A stretch of 64,000 bases of DNA from Pomacea canaliculata (taxonomy: Eukaryota; Mollusca; Gastropoda; Architaenioglossa; Ampullariidae): NCBI RefSeq assembly GCF_003073045.1, contig NC_037597.1, forward strand, positions 9,955,217 to 10,019,216. Direction: 5' to 3'. The notes beneath the pieces were generated by a model. It did no database searches. It was not told the DNA's origin and saw only the letters and a list, made by a program, of their open reading frames with translations. The position numbers were made by a program, and so were the translations under genes. Of the stretch, positions 11,531 to 58,327 are shown piece after piece. How positions within the stretch are numbered: position 1 is the stretch's first letter; each line of letters opens with the position of its first letter.

Positions 11531-11536
11531 TTTATT
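11531..11536 (-). terminator. Poly(A) signal of selenoprotein L
   Basis: AATAAA on the minus strand, 16 nt beyond the 3' end of the SECIS stem. It would give a compact 3' UTR of roughly 120-140 nt that still contains the whole SECIS element. Confidence 0.65.
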
Positions 11537-11551
11537 TTGACACAACATGGT

Positions 11552-11627
11552 GAAAAAAGAAAAATATCCAACAGCAATCTCCATGCTTCCATGGTTTTGA
11601 CAGCTATTTTCATGAACATCTTTTCTC
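11552..11627 (-). promoter_or_regulatory. SECIS element, form II, of selenoprotein L
   Basis: Read on the minus strand, all parts of a eukaryotic SECIS are present. The lower stem GAGAAAAGA (11619-11627) pairs with UCUUUUUUC (11552-11560), 9 of 9 with one G-U. An internal loop follows. The non-Watson-Crick quartet is UGAA (in AUGAA, AUGA at 11610-11613) opposite GGAU (11566-11569), giving U-U, G-A, A-G and A-G. The upper helix AAUAGCUGUC pairs with GAUUGCUGUU, 9 of 10. Eleven nucleotides after AUGA come the unpaired AAAA and then the mini-hairpin CCAUG-GAAG-CAUGG, which makes it form II. It would bind SBP2 and recruit the selenocysteine machinery to recode the two UGA codons. It starts 15 nt after the stop codon. 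Confidence 0.88.
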
Positions 11628-11642
11628 ATTCAAAGGTTCCAG

Positions 11643-14600
11643 TCAAGTAGGTTCTGGTGCCTTTTCCATGCAGGTCTAGGGAAAAATATTCCCCACAAAA
11701 AATTAAATACATGCACTATTAGCATTATTATGCAAGTAACCAAGCTCAAATTTAAACAGATACAGATATGAACACCACGTACATATATACACAAATTTAG
11801 AAAAGATATACACATATATATATTCACAAAGGCATGAACACATGCAGATGCACACACGTAGCATGTATTGTATTAATATGTCTTCTATTAATATATTAAT
11901 GATACAGGTAAAAATACATTCTTGCTTTATATATTACCTTTATCATTGAATGTGAATGTTCATAAATGAAAAAGTGAAATGCTTAAATCAAACAAAAGTT
12001 TACAGGAAAAAAATTATAGCTGCTGAAAGATTATCAAGGGTGGGCAGATATCTTCACCTATACTCTTTTCAAAAAGAATGTTGAACAAAGTTATAAAAAT
12101 CTCTCACCAATGATGTATGGAGGGAACACAACAGATGATCAACAGATGGTCTGTCTGTGGATGATTGGCTGCAGTAGGTCAGCAAAACAGTTCCATCTCT
12201 AGCCACAATAAAATCGCCTCCAAGCTGATAACATGCAACAGCGAACATTTATTTTGTTATGCTTCGCAGCTTCAAGTGGAGCAAATAGCAGGCAACAGAT
12301 GGAGTTTACTTATTTACACCATGGCAAAATTAAAAATTGCAAGGTACTACTGCTGGTAAAACTAACACATCCTTAGTAGGTCAACACACAAGCTATGGCT
12401 TTTATCATTTATATATCACTATTATGGAGTGAAAATTAGGGTAGTAAAGAAGCATAACTCATCATCATTTTACCGCTAAACTCTAATTTAATGAGTGAAA
12501 ATAAGTACTTTATTAAAAAAAACTTAAATCTGATTCTAAAATGAATTTTTATACAGTTATATGGGTATGGTTCTTTTCAGTACATAAAAAAATGTTAAAT
12601 TATTTGGCAAACAGAAGAATTATTTTGCTATAAACAAAAGAAAAAAGAGTATCTCTAGATCTCGATAACTAAGAAAAAAATCCTGTGCAACTAAATGTAC
12701 ATAATCTTATGTTACATTAAAAAAAAGCTTTAAGAAAAGGAATTGTCATAAAAACTGTAGAGGTATCAGGAGTTCTTGTCACAGTTAAATCCCTGATCAT
12801 TCTTGTAGTAGTTTTTCACCAGATAATCATTCATTCCCAAACCAATTCATCAAGATTTATGATAAATAAAGCTACAGTTAACCAAAATGTTTTTGTACAC
12901 TTTGCAAACCACAATAAGTAAAAAGAAAAATTGATCACCTGGTTGGGATCATCATGGATATTTTCATAGGGAGTTGGCAGACTTCTGCCTGCACACATTT
13001 GTTGTGCATAGTAAACCATACACGAAATGCTCCACACCTGAAAATCCAAGATAAAGACATCACAAATATTTAGCTTCAACAACATTTCCAGCTGAATATA
13101 GGTAACTGTTAGGTATTTTGTCAGTTCTGCTAGGTCTTATTTTGATATAAAACAAGATAAAGCTCAATGACATAAAAGCATGTTAATTAAGTATGCATGC
13201 ACATCAAGAACAGAGCAAAGTGCATCATGTTCGTGTCATTTTCTGACCATGCCTTCTTTATCACAAGCACACGTGCACAAATATCAGTAGATTCCTACCT
13301 TCAGAACAGACTGCTTCAAGCCAAATGAATGATAGAGCTAAGGGCAAAGAACAAAAATGCATACATTATTACTGTAAAAAACAATTATTTCAAAACCATT
13401 TACTTTTTTTTAAAGAGCACATTCCAAACATTAAAAACGAGATATTTTGTATAAAATCAGAGATTACGCTACACATGTGCATCTAAGCTGTGGCTTGTCA
13501 TGCAGTATAATTAAGAGTATGTGTGTGAGTGAATGTGTGAGAGGAATGGAGACCAGGAAAGGAGTATGTGTCTGTGCATATTATGAAGAGAACTATACCT
13601 GTCTGTCATGGTCCAGAATCATGTCAAATGGACAGTTTGTTTCTTCTAGCCATCGCAATGCTCCTTCATGGGCACCAAAAGATACCATTACAATTTGTGA
13701 CCCCAGTCTGTAGAACTCGTCCTAAAGCAAATAAGGAAGCATGTAAAGCACTTGCATAAAATTTTGATTTATAAAAAGCACCTGTCAATTATGAGCTGAG
13801 TTTACAATTGAAATTTAGTCAGCAGAAGAAAAAAACAAACTGCAATTACTATTTGTTTAATGAATAAATATAACCATCTTGTTTCCTGGAGTGAAGGCCT
13901 AAGCTTTCAAAAACAGAAAACATATTATTACCTGCTTTGTTATCAACTCTTGAAGATGCTGCCGTCATGGTAGTCAGGCAAAATGTCTTAACAATACCAG
14001 CACAACAGAGGATGGAAATGGCAGGAAAGATGATAAACCTGAATTCCCTGCATCACTAGGTGCTTCTTGTATAACAGATCCAGAAGATGGTTTTTCTTTG
14101 TGAAAGAAATCATAAAGGCACTTTCTGGTTCCTGTACGGGCATCAATAAACATCTGCATTAATGATATTTGCTGACCCTCAGTTAAAGGATGAGGCCCTT
14201 TTGTGCCAATGCGGGAGTCCACATCTTTCAGTAAATCATCCCATTTATTCTAGGAAAAGAAACATGAAACACTACCAATCATTTCTGATACAAATATTTT
14301 TAATCATGTTATATAATTCAACCTTAGAATTGATAACTGATAAAAACAAATAAATTTTTTTTTTAAAGTCATTTCCTGTAAACTTTCCTCAGATCTTCCA
14401 TGTAGTTAGTTTTTGTTTTTATGAGAGATAAATCCCTTTTTCATAAAAGTAATGCCACAACAAACTTTAATGTGTAATATGGAAGAGTATTACATATTTG
14501 CCTTATCCGCACACTATTTTAGGCCGTTGCATATAAGTAAAAAAAAATATTTAGAGTAAAAAAAACTTTTAAAAAAATCATGTGAATGGATTTAAGTATG

Positions 14601-16513
14601 CTCAAATTCTGTAACTACACCTAGTACTAAAGAAAACATCACTCTTTTCTTTCTTGCTGTAAACATGGTGAATCCATATGACTTCTTGTTTCCTGGTTGT
14701 TCTGATCACAAATGTCACAATTTGAAGCTCTTACACAAAATTTTTTTAGCAAATGATAATTCAACAGCAAAAAGAACTTCAAAAATAGTTCTTTCATTGA
14801 TTTTCTATTAAAAATAATTTAACATTTGCACAACACATGCATTGTTTAACCCATTATTAACAAAAATCTGTACCTCAGCTTCTTGCCATTCTTCAAAAGC
14901 CTCCCTTAATGGTGAATATCTGCAACAGGTTAGATAACTGTAATTTATGTAATGGATATGCTTCTACAAATTTAAATCATATTCATAACAAATGGACACA
15001 TACATCAACAGATATCTAAAGACTAGCATAACAGCAAATACTATTCTAAAAACTACAAAAGTAACAAAATATTTATTATCTAAAGCTTCATTTATTCTGT
15101 AAAATATACAGATGATGCTGGATAATTATAATTACTCCATCTAGTTTGTGGCAAGTTCACCACAAGTTAGTCTGTCTTAAGTAAATCCTACACAGCCCAG
15201 GTCTGGATCTAACACAAAGGGCAGTTCCCTTACTGTTGTAACTGGAATATAAAGGGCTTCAGAGAATGTAAACCTATTTCAAATACAAAATGTGCAATTG
15301 AGACTTGATGGAAACAATGCAACCACAATGGTAGCATATAATTTGTAGATTAAGTGATAATTTACCTGAAATGATGCTTGATCTTTTCCTCAAAATCATC
15401 TTTTGTCTGTATGCCAAGCCTTAAAAAAAGAATTAAAATATTTATATGTTTAAGTCTGAAACTTAAAAATGTATTGTCAATAAGCTATATTCGGTACTTT
15501 AACTTGATGTTAAACAATTCAGTTCTGCAACAAAAATAAAGCTCTTTAAATGTGTTTATATATTTTGTATATATATATAGAGCGAGCATGAACAACTGCA
15601 AGACAATTGTTGACCGAAGTATAATGGTATCTAAATTGCTGAGATGTCTTTTTACTAATTATTTACTATGTACAATTTATAATAATGTGTACACCCATGT
15701 ATGCATGAGAAAACAACACAGGATACCCATGAACACAGGAAGGATGAACAGTAAAATATGTGCACTGCCCATTGCTCATTTTCCCTTCTGGCTCTAAATA
15801 TTTGGTGGTGTGCAAATGTATGTCAAATCTGGACTTAGAGTGAGAAAAACATGTAAACATTGAAGTTTGAATATTTTGTGCTACTATACAGTTGCTTTCA
15901 GTTTTACAGCTTGTGAACTTACCTTTCAAAAATATCTTTGTAAACACTAGCCAACCTGAACAGCTTGCCTATTTTACTGCTCACAAATGTTTTCACTGAA
16001 GCTAGTGGCAAAAACATAAGAAAGAATGAGTAAAATGAATCCAAGCCTTCCAAATATATACCTTGGTTTGAAACATGCATTAAAAACTACAAATTGCTGT
16101 ATTTCGTGTATCACTGTCACACAAACATAAAACTAAAAATGATCACAAACAAAATGCTTTCTCTGAATACTGATAACTGATATTATAAATTTTTCTTTTC
16201 AGATGAAATTTTATCATTCATTTAATAATCTTTTACTCAGAGTGAGAGTCAGGTGTGTGTATAACTGTATACATATATCTCTGCACATGTGTAGACTTAT
16301 GTCATCTGCTGCACCAACATTACAGCCACAATTATTTGAATAAAGCTATTACAATGATCAGCTATACTTAAATTTAACGCTTCTTTACTAACCCTTAACC
16401 TCCTTTTCGGCGTATGCTACTAGGGTCTCTTCTGCCTCCTTGAGCTCTTGAAGACAGAGCAGAAGAGTTTCTTTGTTCTGTCTTTCATCCATCATTTTAT
16501 TGTAATATGGTAA
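11643..16513 (-). CDS. SELENOL: Selenoprotein L, UxxU thioredoxin-fold selenoprotein
   Basis: Ten exons join in phase: 16393-16513, 15923-16001, 15366-15419, 14874-14919, 13932-14249, 13599-13721, 13299-13337, 12939-13037, 12108-12224, 11643-11675. They read continuously except for two UGA codons at 13974-13976 and 13965-13967. The context is LRHFA-U-LP-U-RQHLQEL, where AhpC/TSA-like proteins have a CxxC active site. The fold continues through IVMVSFGAHEGALRWLEET, CPFDMILD and GGDFIVARDG. From the ATG at 16495 the protein has 336 residues, with Sec at 186 and 189. The N-terminal half is helical. In published fish SelL the UxxU forms a diselenide; the family is known from aquatic animals and the redox substrate is unknown. 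A SECIS lies in the 3' UTR. The true start is uncertain because the first listed exon is preceded by a splice acceptor and is open upstream of the ATG. Confidence 0.88.
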
Positions 16514-16916
16514 CTGCAAGATACAAACAATGCAGGGCTAAGTTGTATGGAAAAAACCACAAATGCTCCTTCTAGGTAATAATACCTGCATGGGTGATAG
16601 GAACCTAAATAAAGTGCTTTTATTTAAACGAATCTGCCTATGTGTGGCATCAAATGTCAACACACACAACTTACAATTTAAATATTCAATGCTACTTCTG
16701 CTGAAATCTGTTAATTAACTTAATATATTTAGTCAAATGGACAAGGCAGCTCCTGGACATGTGACACTGATAGGTGACGGGGTGTCTGTGGCAGTGTAGG
16801 TTGGGTCGGGAGAACAACATTCTTACAGGGCGTCATATGCCGGTCGATGTTATTTTTGCAGAGGGGAGAGCAGGTACGATCGATTTTTGAGAGGGGAGCG
16901 CAGTGGGGCGTGGTGA

Positions 16917-18861: not shown

Positions 18862-28492
<9,631 letters not shown>

Positions 28493-36632: not shown

Positions 36633-37130
36633 TTTGTATGATATGAATTGTTTGGACCACGAACAGGTATCTATACACGTCCGTGGTTTGGACTACTCCT
36701 TTAGACTTTATTCTTTCCTGTCTTGGGGAGTTCTCTCTCTTTCGGAGAAACAATTCAACCTTCCTCAGAGGAGAGCGTACCGTTCGAAGAAAAAAAAAAA
36801 AGGACAACCACGGACTTCCACACTAACCGAAGGCTGTGAAGACGACGCTGTTATTAGATGTGAGGACGGAAAACATTATACTAAAAAGATAAAGTTTGTA
36901 AAAGACGAAAGTAAATCTCATGCTTCTAAAGTTATTGTTTCATAGGAGCGATTTTAAATATTGTTGTCGGTGATATTGATGTTTATATCTATAAAATTCT
37001 ACGTAAAAATTAATTTTTAATTGTAGTTTACTTCTTGTTACTTTCCAGTCCTGATTTCGTTTTCTGTATTTTCAGAGAATGCAGCCTCATACTTCTTAAA
37101 TTATCATACCATAAACACTGATCCAGGAAC
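36633..37130. promoter_or_regulatory. Divergent promoter region of CHP1 and NDUFAF1
   Basis: The two start codons point away from each other across 498 bp. No TATA box is evident. A splice acceptor (GTATTTTCAG) at 37066-37075 indicates a non-coding first exon of NDUFAF1 inside the interval. After it comes a short upstream frame, ATGCAGCCTCATACTTCTTAA, before the main start. The frame at 36634-36945 on the plus strand has no recognisable domain and probably reflects 5' UTR or promoter DNA. Confidence 0.5.
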
Positions 37131-39310
37131 ATGGCCCAAGGTGTGTGTAGATATGCAAGCATTATGAATGGTGCACGGCAAGTGCTTTTTCATCATAGGA
37201 TTCACAAAGTTTTCAAACAACATCTTGTCTGCATAAGTGTTTGGGAAAAGGACAAGAAAGGTGGCAACAGAAAACCTTATCCAGTTTCCCACATAGAAAT
37301 GATAAAAGATGGACTGAAGATGATGGGTCCAGAAATGAAAAAGTTTGGTGATGAAATGAAACATAAATTCCGTGCAGATCCATTTGTTAATATAAATGAT
37401 GGTGATTATGAATACATATGGAAATTCAATGATCGAAAGAGAGTTGAGGAATGGATCGTAAGTTCAGACCATGATAACAACGAGGGTCAGAGCAAAGCAA
37501 ATCTGACTTTTTCCACAAACAACACAGCTCTCTTCCATGGCTATCTCTCCCAGCAAGTTCCTAAAGATGGAGTAGTCAAACGCACAGGCTATTGTAACAT
37601 CCGTTCTCCAACTAAATTTGTAAGTCGCAGATAAATGTCATTCTTTATTTACCAGTTCTGAGGAAAATTTGCATTATTTGTCAAAATACATACATACACC
37701 ACCTACATGTGTCTCAGAAATGCGTCGGAGATATGCACATATATTGGTGTATGCTCACATTTGCATGATTACATGTATGAATTATCATAAATAAATAGGT
37801 ACAGACAGAAAGCCAATATATCTGCAACAGATATGTATTTACTGACTCCCCTGTCAATATTTTGCGGACTTGAATTTAGTGTTCAAGTTAATAAGATCAA
37901 GGAATAGTCCTAAGAAATGTGAATTTAAAGCCATTTGAGAAGTTAACAGTTGTTCAGATTCACATCACAAAGGGGAATAAAGCCAGTTTCATTTATTTTC
38001 TGATGCAGCTTAGTAAGGTTGTCAAGAGTGATCAAGTTCTATATACAAGAATGTTTTCTCATTTAACAGCTGTCATTTAAGCGGGAAGATAATCATGACT
38101 GGAGCTGTTTCACCCACCTTTTGATGCGTGTGCGAGGTGATGGTCGTCCATATATGGTGACAATAAGCATGGACCGGTTTTTTGACATAAACTGGTTTGA
38201 TCAGTACCACTACACACTCTTTACTAGAGGTGGACCATACTGGCAGATAGCTAAGGTTAGTTGCTTTTTATCTTGTTTGTGTGCATCTGGTTATAAATTT
38301 TGTTAATAATCTTTGTTTTACCTATTACTGTACTAGATGTTAGATTTGTTAAAGATCATTTGAAAAATCAGGCGTAAATTGGTCTTGGATTTTAAAAGGT
38401 GATGAGACAGAAGTGCAAGAGCATATTATGGAAGAAAACAATTTTTTGTGAGCATTTTATTTTTAGGTTAATGATGAAAGTTTCTTTTGATTTTTATATT
38501 TTACCATATAATTAACTTTTTTTAAAAGAAATTGTGATTAAAAAAGGAGAACATGCGTAATTTATCTAACCCATTTAAACTATTCAAGAAATGTTTAGAT
38601 GCTTAGTTCAGAATGACTGGAGTTATTATTTACTTACCTAATATAGTTTGATCAAAGTTAATCATACCAAAAATACAGCATCTGAGAAATTCCAAATATA
38701 AAATTAAAATGTTTTAATATATTTAAAAGGCATACTACCTGTTAAACTTATAGATTTAGTGATGCATGTAAAAGACAAATGGTTGTGTCTTCCATGACTG
38801 TATTACATTTCCTCTAAAAGTGTGTGTGTAAATGTCTGTATGAGTATGTATGCCTGCCCTTGTGAGCAAAAGAAAAATTTCTATCTTGGGTCTCCTCGAC
38901 AGACAATAAAGTCTGATTTGATTTGATTTGAAGTGATGTTGTTGTGTGGTCCATGACTATTGTATTTCCTCATAATGTATTTTTTTGACATTATGTCCTA
39001 GTCAGTACTGTAGAGAAATCAAGGGGCTTTGATAGCTGTGTTACATGTCCATAAATAATAAGCCTGGGATTTACTTCCTATGCAGATTCCGTTCTCCAAG
39101 TTTTACGTCACAAGCAAAGGCCGTATCCAGGACAAGCAAGAACCTATTCAACTGGAACGCATCACTCATTTGAGTATCACAATTGGTGATGGGAACGAAG
39201 GACCTTTTTACCTGGAAATAGATTATATTGCCTGCATGTTTGATGAAAACCATAAAGAGGCATTTGCCTATGAATCTTATGTCACTGATCCTGCTCATGT
39301 AAACACATAG
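37131..39310 (+). CDS. NDUFAF1: NDUFAF1, complex I assembly factor (CIA30)
   Basis: NDUFAF1 is a mitochondrial matrix chaperone of the MCIA complex, needed to assemble the membrane arm of respiratory complex I. Coding exons 37131-37619, 38070-38255 and 39086-39310 give 299 residues (human about 327). The N-terminus is basic and Arg/His/Lys-rich (VCRYASIMNGARQVLFHHR), consistent with a mitochondrial presequence. The CIA30 domain follows: [63 protein letters not shown] and GPFYLEIDYIACM. The start ATG (GGAACATGG) is the first long one after the upstream acceptor. A poly(A) signal near 39580 would end a short 3' UTR. Confidence 0.95.
38850..38935 (+). repeat. Tail of a non-LTR retroelement or SINE with (TGATT)n end
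   Basis: The segment ends ATCTTGGGTCTCCTCGACAG, then ACAATAAAGTCTGATTTGATTTGATTTG. A conserved-looking 3' end followed by tandem TGATT repeats is typical of LINE/SINE 3' tails. It lies in the second intron of NDUFAF1. The 5' limit is unclear. Confidence 0.45.
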
Positions 39311-55422: not shown

Positions 55423-58327
55423 CTACTGCGTTCCAACATGAAAGTGGTGGAGACTATCGGACTCCTTTTCTTTTCGGGTGTTCTCCCTGCTTCTGTCGCA
55501 CGAGAAAATGTATCTGATTGTGGCCTGGAACTTCGAGCCCATTCGGTAGTAAACGAAGAAGTTCGTTGAGCAGTTGATGATTCTGAACTGCGTGATTATC
55601 TCCCACAACACCGAGGTCAGGTTGTAGTAGCGACCGGTGTAGCTTAGGTCGGGCACCAGAAAGGCCGAGATCTGCACCATGACCGTCGGAATGGTGCAGA
55701 CGATGAATAAAATGGACGTCGCGATAAGCATTTTGGTCAGAGCCACCTCTCGGCTCGGTAGGACGCGGGCAGAACTGTTGGCGTCTGTTGCTAAAGATGT
55801 CGCAGTCGGTGAGATGGTCGTCGTCAACAGCTGACGTCGCCAGACGACGGCTTTGTGAATCTTTAGCGCCGTGATGGCCGTGGTGACGACGATGATGACG
55901 AGCACGACAAAGGAGAAGGACGTGGAATAAAAGAAGATGTCGATAATATCGAAGACCTTTCTGTTGTCCAGATAAAACCTGCAACAAAGATGCCAAAATA
56001 GTGGTTTCACCGACAGATGGGCAGCGCTTCACTTTCAGTTCAAAACAAGAAAACTTGTTGATGGCTCCATGCCATTATTACATGAAGGAGAGCAAAGAGT
56101 GCGTTCTCAACAATGTGTGAAAATCTTCATGTGGTACAGTGTGTGGAACTTGCACACGTTCACAGTAAGTTCTACTCACGACGTGAAGGCCAGCACGTTG
56201 CTCGTGCGGTTGGTGACGGGGTCGAACTCGCAGACGACGATGTGTTTGTTGCCCGCGATGACCCAGATGCCAGCCACCAGCACAAAACAGACAACTGAAA
56301 TGATCACGGCCATGGTCGAGGTCTTGAAGTATTTCTGCGCTTTGAAGGGGCTGACCACACAGAAACACCGCTCACAAGCGATCACGCAGGACAGGAACTG
56401 GGAAGCGAACAGGAAGCCTGTCAGACCTGCCAGATTACAATTTGAAATTACTACAAATAAAATAACTGAAAAATTGGGAGGTTGCTCTGTATTTTTCTTG
56501 TTTGCATAAAACAAATATTGATAACGAAAGCATGCTTTATATTTTAAAATCATTCGCTATCATGGAACATTTTAGGCAGTGAACGATTTGTGCTTGATGA
56601 TTACAAGACGACTAAGATTCATGAAAAAATTTAAATCAACAGACGTCTTCTTTAAGTATATATTATGGTAAGTAAGCTCTTTTACGGATTAACTTCAAGC
56701 AAAAAAGAACACGTCTTATCTAGATAATAAAGTGACTTGAAGTTTTGAAATAAAAGACCAGTAAACGCGTTAAATTATACAAAGATTGGCCGAGGTCTGG
56801 GGATTCCTTCTGACCCTGGCGTTGCCTATGCATAGTCTTTTGGACAAATTCGGCCCAGTTTTGTGCATTTCATGGGAGACTAGGCACCGGCACGAAATTC
56901 CATTAATTTCTTGTTTGATGATATTCGATGAAATGTGCATCAAACACAGTTAAGCTTCATGAAGCTTGGAATCGACGAGAAGCAGCGATTAGACACTGTC
57001 CTACAGAAATCGTTCACTCACCTACTAAGTATTGCAGGAGAACGCTGGATTCACCGACAAGGTTTCTGTAGGCTTGCTCGGCCGACAGAAGAAAGAGAAC
57101 AGTGACCACAATGAGATCAGCAAGAGCTAGAGCGAAGAGACACAGGTTGATTCGCTCCCGGAGTCCATGTTTGTAGAAGACGGCGGCATTGAGGATGTTG
57201 GTAGGAAATCCCAATATGAAAAGAACTGGAACAAGTCCAGCAGGGAGAATCGTTCTGATCCAATATTCTGTCTGAAAAGTAAAGTGCATGATTACCTCAG
57301 ATTTTTAAAGTATTTTGCTTCAGATGAATGTTCTGGTTGTAAAGGTTAAACGGCTACCGTTTGTTGTCTATGGACTAGAGCTGATGATGGGCGCCAGTAC
57401 AGAGTTTCGGAACAGAAAATATAAACGTTCGATGGCTAGCTATCGTCAGTATTATTCAGCTGCTGCGGTATTGTATGAATGTGATGGCCAACATTTCTAC
57501 ATACGCAAGTTTTTAAAATCGGTAATATCCTCCCATCCCTTTAAAAGTATTTTTTTTAATGCCTTTTAGGTCATTCTTAAACATGCTGCTCATGATGAGC
57601 CGAAGTTTCTTTGTCTCTTTTCCCTCGTGTCTCAGGAACTCGAAGAACGATGGTACAAGGCAGTATGCATCACGATAGAAACACCAACGTCTCCAGATCG
57701 ATGTTGGTCTCAAGAAAGACAGGAAGAGCAAGGAAGACTGATAAGGCACGTGCAGGAAACCGTTTATGACGTCAGATATCAGACTGCAGCGGAATGAGAT
57801 CTTTGCATTTCGAAATAGAATTTTCCAATCACGAGGTCTTGAAAGTTGCAGCTTATCTCTCATAAACATCAAGGTCTTGGGGTTTCTTTTAAGCGTTGGT
57901 ATGAACTGTGTGTGTATATGTGTGTGTGTGATATTATTAAGCAAAAGGTGTTTTGCTGAGTCCTCCGTGACAGGACAAAAGCCATGGCAGTGACAGTGTT
58001 AATTTGTCATGATGAGCTACCCCATATTCCTCGAAAAATGATGATTTGTTTCTCTCTCTACCTCTGCCAGATGCTCTCATAAATGCGCATGCAGCTTATT
58101 AAAACGGCGATGATGAGTCCATCAAATCGTTTATTTTCTAAGCGGACTTTAATAAAGAAATTTATAGTGGAAGTCTGCCATACCTTGTGACTGATGAGGT
58201 CGTAAGGGTTGTCCCAAGGAACAAAGCTGGTGTTCTGTTCAAGTTTGCAGTCTGTTGGAGGAGACGACATGGAGCCTTCAGTGGCCACAGGAATGGACAC
58301 GGTGTGGTGCGAGTCTCGGGTGTACAT
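55423..58327 (-). CDS. Molluscan chemosensory-type rhodopsin-family GPCR
   Basis: Four coding exons join in phase: 58184-58327, 57022-57271, 56180-56426, 55423-55978. They give 398 residues with seven hydrophobic segments. The N-terminus has an N-glycosylation site (NTS, N32). TM1 carries GFPTNILNAAVFYKHGLRER and TM2 carries INLCLFALALADL. TM3 ends ACERCFCVVSPFKAQ, so DRY is replaced by ERC (150-152). Loop 3 has Thr/Ser-rich sequence and SREVALTKML. TM7 reads NCSTNFFVYYRMGSKF in place of NPxxY. No cysteine lies at the top of TM3, although loop 2 has one (VVCEF). These features match the large receptor family described as chemosensory in Aplysia and other gastropods. The ligand is unknown. An acceptor (TCTGCAG) right before the start implies a 5' UTR exon upstream. 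Confidence 0.8.

Follow-up and report, generated by a model that had tools for sequence, protein, structure and literature searches.

We describe a gene on the minus strand of a 64,000-nucleotide stretch of DNA, referred to throughout as the window, which, judged from its sequence, is a complete animal selenoprotein L (SelL) gene. It very probably encodes a functional SelL in which two selenocysteines (Sec) make up a redox pair and a single SECIS serves the insertion of both. Sec insertion in eukaryotes usually proceeds by way of a SECIS, SBP2 and eEFSec. In the mechanism that we propose, both in-frame UGA codons would be read as Sec through one SECIS in the 3′ UTR, which would place U-L-P-U where the family has CxxC, and the two Sec would most likely alternate between the selenol and the diselenide state, so that the protein would act as an oxidoreductase. 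The predicted product has 336 residues, about 170 of which form an N-terminal part without a family match, followed by a thioredoxin-fold domain of the AhpC-TSA_2 type. We infer that the gene is transcribed, that Sec is inserted, and that the product forms a diselenide and is redox-active.

Gene structure and in-frame UGA codons

The coding sequence runs on the minus strand from 16495 to 11643 and comprises 10 exons that join in one frame of 336 codons plus a stop codon (Table 1). A prior interpretation of this DNA, which we call the sequence-only reading, had claimed ten exons joined in frame through two UGA codons, and all ten joined, with both TGA codons where it had put them. Its gene boundaries held to within 18 bases; the outer edge did not stand as drawn, the first ATG lying 18 bases inside it. 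An in-frame TAG is found at 16540, 45 nt upstream of this ATG. Each of the nine introns starts with GT, finishes with AG, and measures 210 to 714 nt. G+C content is 42% in the exons versus 30% in the introns. Within the spliced frame of 337 codons, TGA occurs three times (codons 186 and 189 and the last codon) and neither TAA nor TAG occurs; the alternative frames of the same spliced sequence contain 20 and 24 stops per 336 codons. The two internal TGA codons fall at the active-site position with UxxU spacing, and the translation around them reads LRHFA-U-L-P-U-RQHL.

Table 1. Coordinates of the minus-strand selenoprotein L gene and of the elements at its 3′ end, in the direction of transcription.
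Feature	Position	Strand	Basis
Exon 1, coding part, first ATG (Met-Met)	16393-16495	-	splice joining
Exon 2	15923-16001	-	splice joining
Exon 3	15366-15419	-	splice joining
Exon 4	14874-14919	-	splice joining
Exon 5, both Sec codons inside	13932-14249	-	splice joining
First Sec codon TGA, residue 186, next base C	13974-13976	-	spliced frame, NF040769 masking
Second Sec codon TGA, residue 189, next base C	13965-13967	-	spliced frame, NF040769 masking
Exon 6	13599-13721	-	splice joining
Exon 7	13299-13337	-	splice joining
Exon 8	12939-13037	-	splice joining
Exon 9	12108-12224	-	splice joining
Exon 10, coding part, TGA stop 11645-11643	11643-11675	-	splice joining
SECIS-like element, form II; core ATGA (11613) to GGAT (11566)	11555-11621	-	Rfam SECIS_1 23.3 bits, descriptor scan
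AATAAA poly(A) signal	11531-11536	-	sequence

Since a single base change turns TGC or TGT into TGA, both codons could be plain nonsense mutations in an old CxxC gene that is now a decaying pseudogene. However, TGA occurs on both Cys sites and nowhere else before the end of the frame, the 336 codons are free of TAA, TAG and frameshifts, every splice site is intact, and a SECIS-like element is in place. A tblastn search of the window for a second copy of the gene found none at E ≤ 0.1, the one match being chance-like (E 0.71). We regard decay as highly improbable because frame and splice sites are intact and both TGA codons coincide with Cys sites.

Alternatively, the gene may be real but yield a main product without the redox pair, either because exon 5 is skipped or because translation ends at the first UGA. 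The length of exon 5 is divisible by three and both of its ends have phase 0, so its omission would leave a frame of 230 residues, and a UGA located ahead of several introns may cause message decay when selenium is short. Against this, the 230-residue frame lacks the redox motif, and skipping would cost the domain its active site. The three donor-like sites within exon 5 (14176, 14121, and 14038) would each, by arithmetic, throw exon 6 out of frame if spliced to it. We consider a main product of this kind very unlikely and retain a functional SelL with both Sec as the preferred reading. The claim that ordinary annotation fails on SelL genes agrees with a survey of vertebrate entries that counts SELENOL among three families for which fewer than 1% are "well annotated" in Ensembl (PMC12822975).

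Several other features were noted in the window. Exons belonging to a gene for the COPII coat protein Sec23 lie on the plus strand (21680-22063 and 24912-25253); their Sec23 domains exceed the Pfam cut-offs, and the matched parts are close to PDB entries named Sec23A. An open frame at 37122-37631, also on the plus strand, contains a CIA30 domain that scores 35 bits against a cut-off of 24, and probably encodes a complex I assembly factor, presumably of the NDUFAF1 type. On the minus strand, two open frames at 55426-56556 match 7-transmembrane receptor families, in all cases below the Pfam cut-offs, and may possibly belong to one divergent G-protein-coupled receptor gene. ARAGORN found no tRNA.

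Family assignment and prokaryotic relatives

UxxU is also present in other protein families, so that the motif alone is insufficient to name the gene and it is the domain match that names it. With U read as Cys, the product scored 138.6 bits against NF040769 (SelL-related redox protein), an NCBIfam model of 173 positions with a curated cut-off of 120 bits, and with both Sec positions masked it scored 123.2 bits, still above the cut-off. The match extends from residue 173 to 319 and from model position 24 to 170, and these equal lengths indicate that exons 5 to 9 are joined in agreement with the family. When only exons 6-10 were scored, the result was 89.4 bits, below the cut-off of 120. NF040769 prefers Cys at both Sec sites, and when these were masked in the domain alone (140.9 bits) the score fell by 8.5 bits for the first site and by 6.8 for the second. 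The product also exceeded the cut-offs of Pfam AhpC-TSA_2 (PF13911; 50.1 bits, cut-off 27, and again 50.1 when masked) and AhpC-TSA (PF00578; 39.6 bits, cut-off 26, and 27.8 when masked). With NF040769 and PF13911 above their cut-offs, the product contains a SelL-type peroxiredoxin-like thioredoxin-fold domain. Among solved structures, the closest in sequence is that of a prostamide/prostaglandin F synthase (PDB 9us9, E 0.00015), whose CVVC aligns to the U-L-P-U motif without gaps. The identification of the gene as SelL in the sequence-only reading is supported by an NF040769 match that survives masking, by the Cys preference of that model at both sites, and by the SECIS-like element past the stop codon.

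Upstream of the first TGA the sequence gave no related match, only a weak and unrelated one to DndB (E 0.13), and the N-terminal residues preceding the domain gave nothing significant in Pfam, NCBIfam, or the PDB. These residues could be pictured as a separate domain that docks onto or regulates the diselenide domain, so that animal SelL would be a redox protein of two domains with a dedicated partner, and the gene perhaps in a lineage from which SelL has yet to be reported, but we consider this picture unlikely.

We further compared the domain with prokaryotic relatives. A three-row alignment served as the query of prokaryotic genome contigs, and the best 80 of 243 confirmed relatives were kept. 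Three plasmid records contained mycobacterial peroxiredoxin-like proteins, and two of these loci were added, giving 82 loci in a sample that is biased by search patterns favoring the actinobacterial type. All 82 fetched relatives have CxxC in the motif region, as FAGCxxC or YAGCxxC, in line with the claim that UxxU occupies the position of CxxC and with the Cys preference of NF040769 at both sites. The offset is one residue: ahead of the motif, FAGCxxC has one residue more than the FAUxxU of the window protein. BLAST requires a one-residue gap to set CxxC on UxxU, and in most rows that gap falls inside the motif. The placement of CxxC on UxxU is consequently our reading of these rows, and it is borne out by the ungapped matches to NF040769 and 9us9. 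The aligned stretches of the 82 loci contain four stop symbols; none can fall within the motif, which reads FAGCxxC or YAGCxxC in every one of them. Five of the best 80 relatives scored 48-68 bits against NF040769, below its cut-off, for their matched stretches only; the window protein thus lies closer to the SelL model than these five do. Because the search patterns favored actinobacteria, the fact that none of the 82 loci is a Sec form is uninformative about bacterial SelL. An earlier scan of genome contigs for relatives confirmed none of its 20 pattern matches. A protein search of viral contigs likewise confirmed none of 9, and these contigs had no match to the UxxU motif when it was written as one degenerate DNA sequence. 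Phages gave no match at E 0.01.

The SECIS-like element and the final stop codon

Behind the stop codon lies a SECIS-like element. By inspection its shape is form II: an AUGA core is followed by a 6-bp helix beside the quartet and by additional pairs, and then come a bulge of AAAA, a mini-stem of 5 bp, and a GGAU core. Its core starts 29 nt past the stop codon and 473 nt past the second UGA. Rfam SECIS_1 was the best family match in the 3′ region of the gene, at 23.3 bits versus a gathering score of 35, and no other Rfam SECIS match appeared in the window up to an E-value of 10. Against all 4227 families, the E-value of this site was 0.016 when 201 bases were considered and 5 when the entire window was; at the gathering threshold, Rfam reported nothing within the window. 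A SECIS followed by a poly(A) signal had been proposed at this place, and the core bases, their spacing, the form-II shape and the AATAAA are there, although the Rfam score falls short of gathering.

A form-II descriptor applied to both strands of the window returned a single site, the SECIS-like element behind the SelL stop codon. On 100 simulated first-order Markov strands of 64 kb each, this descriptor, which was drawn up once the site was known, yielded 0.11 sites per strand, or 0.4 without the mini-stem condition. At 0.11 sites per strand, one site anywhere in the window would not be very surprising; one located right behind the stop codon is. The folding energy of the region was not unusual relative to shuffled sequences (z = -0.29, +0.90, and -1.22 for the stretches tried, the second of which was without the 5′ core).

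The final stop codon, like the two Sec codons, is a TGA with C as its next base. Past it, ten codons remain open before the TGA of the SECIS core is reached (11645-11611, minus strand). Recoding of this TGA as well would thus add ten residues. However, the minimum UGA-SECIS distance for Dio1 is cited as 51-111 nt (PMC3316567), and the 29 nt found here fall below it, so that the last TGA most likely terminates translation. The family model, moreover, stops short of the last TGA, and we assign recoding at this position a negligible probability. Termination at this TGA, with recoding at codons 186 and 189 by the one element behind it, is the arrangement that we favor.

Comparison with selenoprotein L and other UxxU proteins

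SelL of fish and aquatic invertebrates was reportedly described by Shchedrina et al. in PNAS in 2007, as related in papers citing that work. One SECIS serves the insertion of both Sec of SelL (PMC3316567), and SelL of Ciona is known from ESTs (PMC2874816). The table of a 2012 survey lists SelL for a sponge, a placozoan, a cnidarian, an annelid, and amphioxus, and lists none for the limpet Lottia, its one mollusc (PMC3473315); three flatworms are given as lacking it (PMC3828610). Our search of the literature on molluscs, gastropods, and bivalves, from which subscription journals were mostly out of scope, found no report of SelL, and this is no proof of absence. A family with two Sec and a single SECIS, occurring in several invertebrates, is already published (PMC3316567, PMC2397514, PMC2874816, PMC3473315), and existing knowledge of the family is unchanged by the new gene. 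What the gene adds is a complete model with exon boundaries, the SECIS-like element, and 3′ UTR. With it, annotation can be mended, and experiments can ask how a single SECIS would serve two UGA codons so close together, in a family that is one of the few with a Sec-Sec redox pair.

SelL of fish and aquatic invertebrates is described as having a pair of Sec spaced two residues apart, a single SECIS, and a peroxiredoxin-like thioredoxin fold. The window gene resembles this description in its predicted Sec pair and fold and has a SECIS-like element behind its stop codon, and at this level of description no difference was found. NF040769, a model used for prokaryotes, matches the window protein above its cut-off even with the Sec masked, but prefers Cys at both sites and is without the N-terminal residues, about 170, of the window protein. 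Actinobacterial and other AhpC-TSA_2 peroxiredoxin-like proteins, represented by the 82 loci, share the fold and have CxxC in the UxxU region, but with about 26-32% identity to the window protein and with FAGCxxC instead of FAUxxU. Other UxxU selenoproteins, namely peroxiredoxin-like proteins of marine metagenomes and prokaryotes and SELENOW of amphioxus and Ostreococcus (PMC2398784, PMC13188914, PMC7539508), also have two Sec in UxxU, but the papers themselves assign them to separate families.
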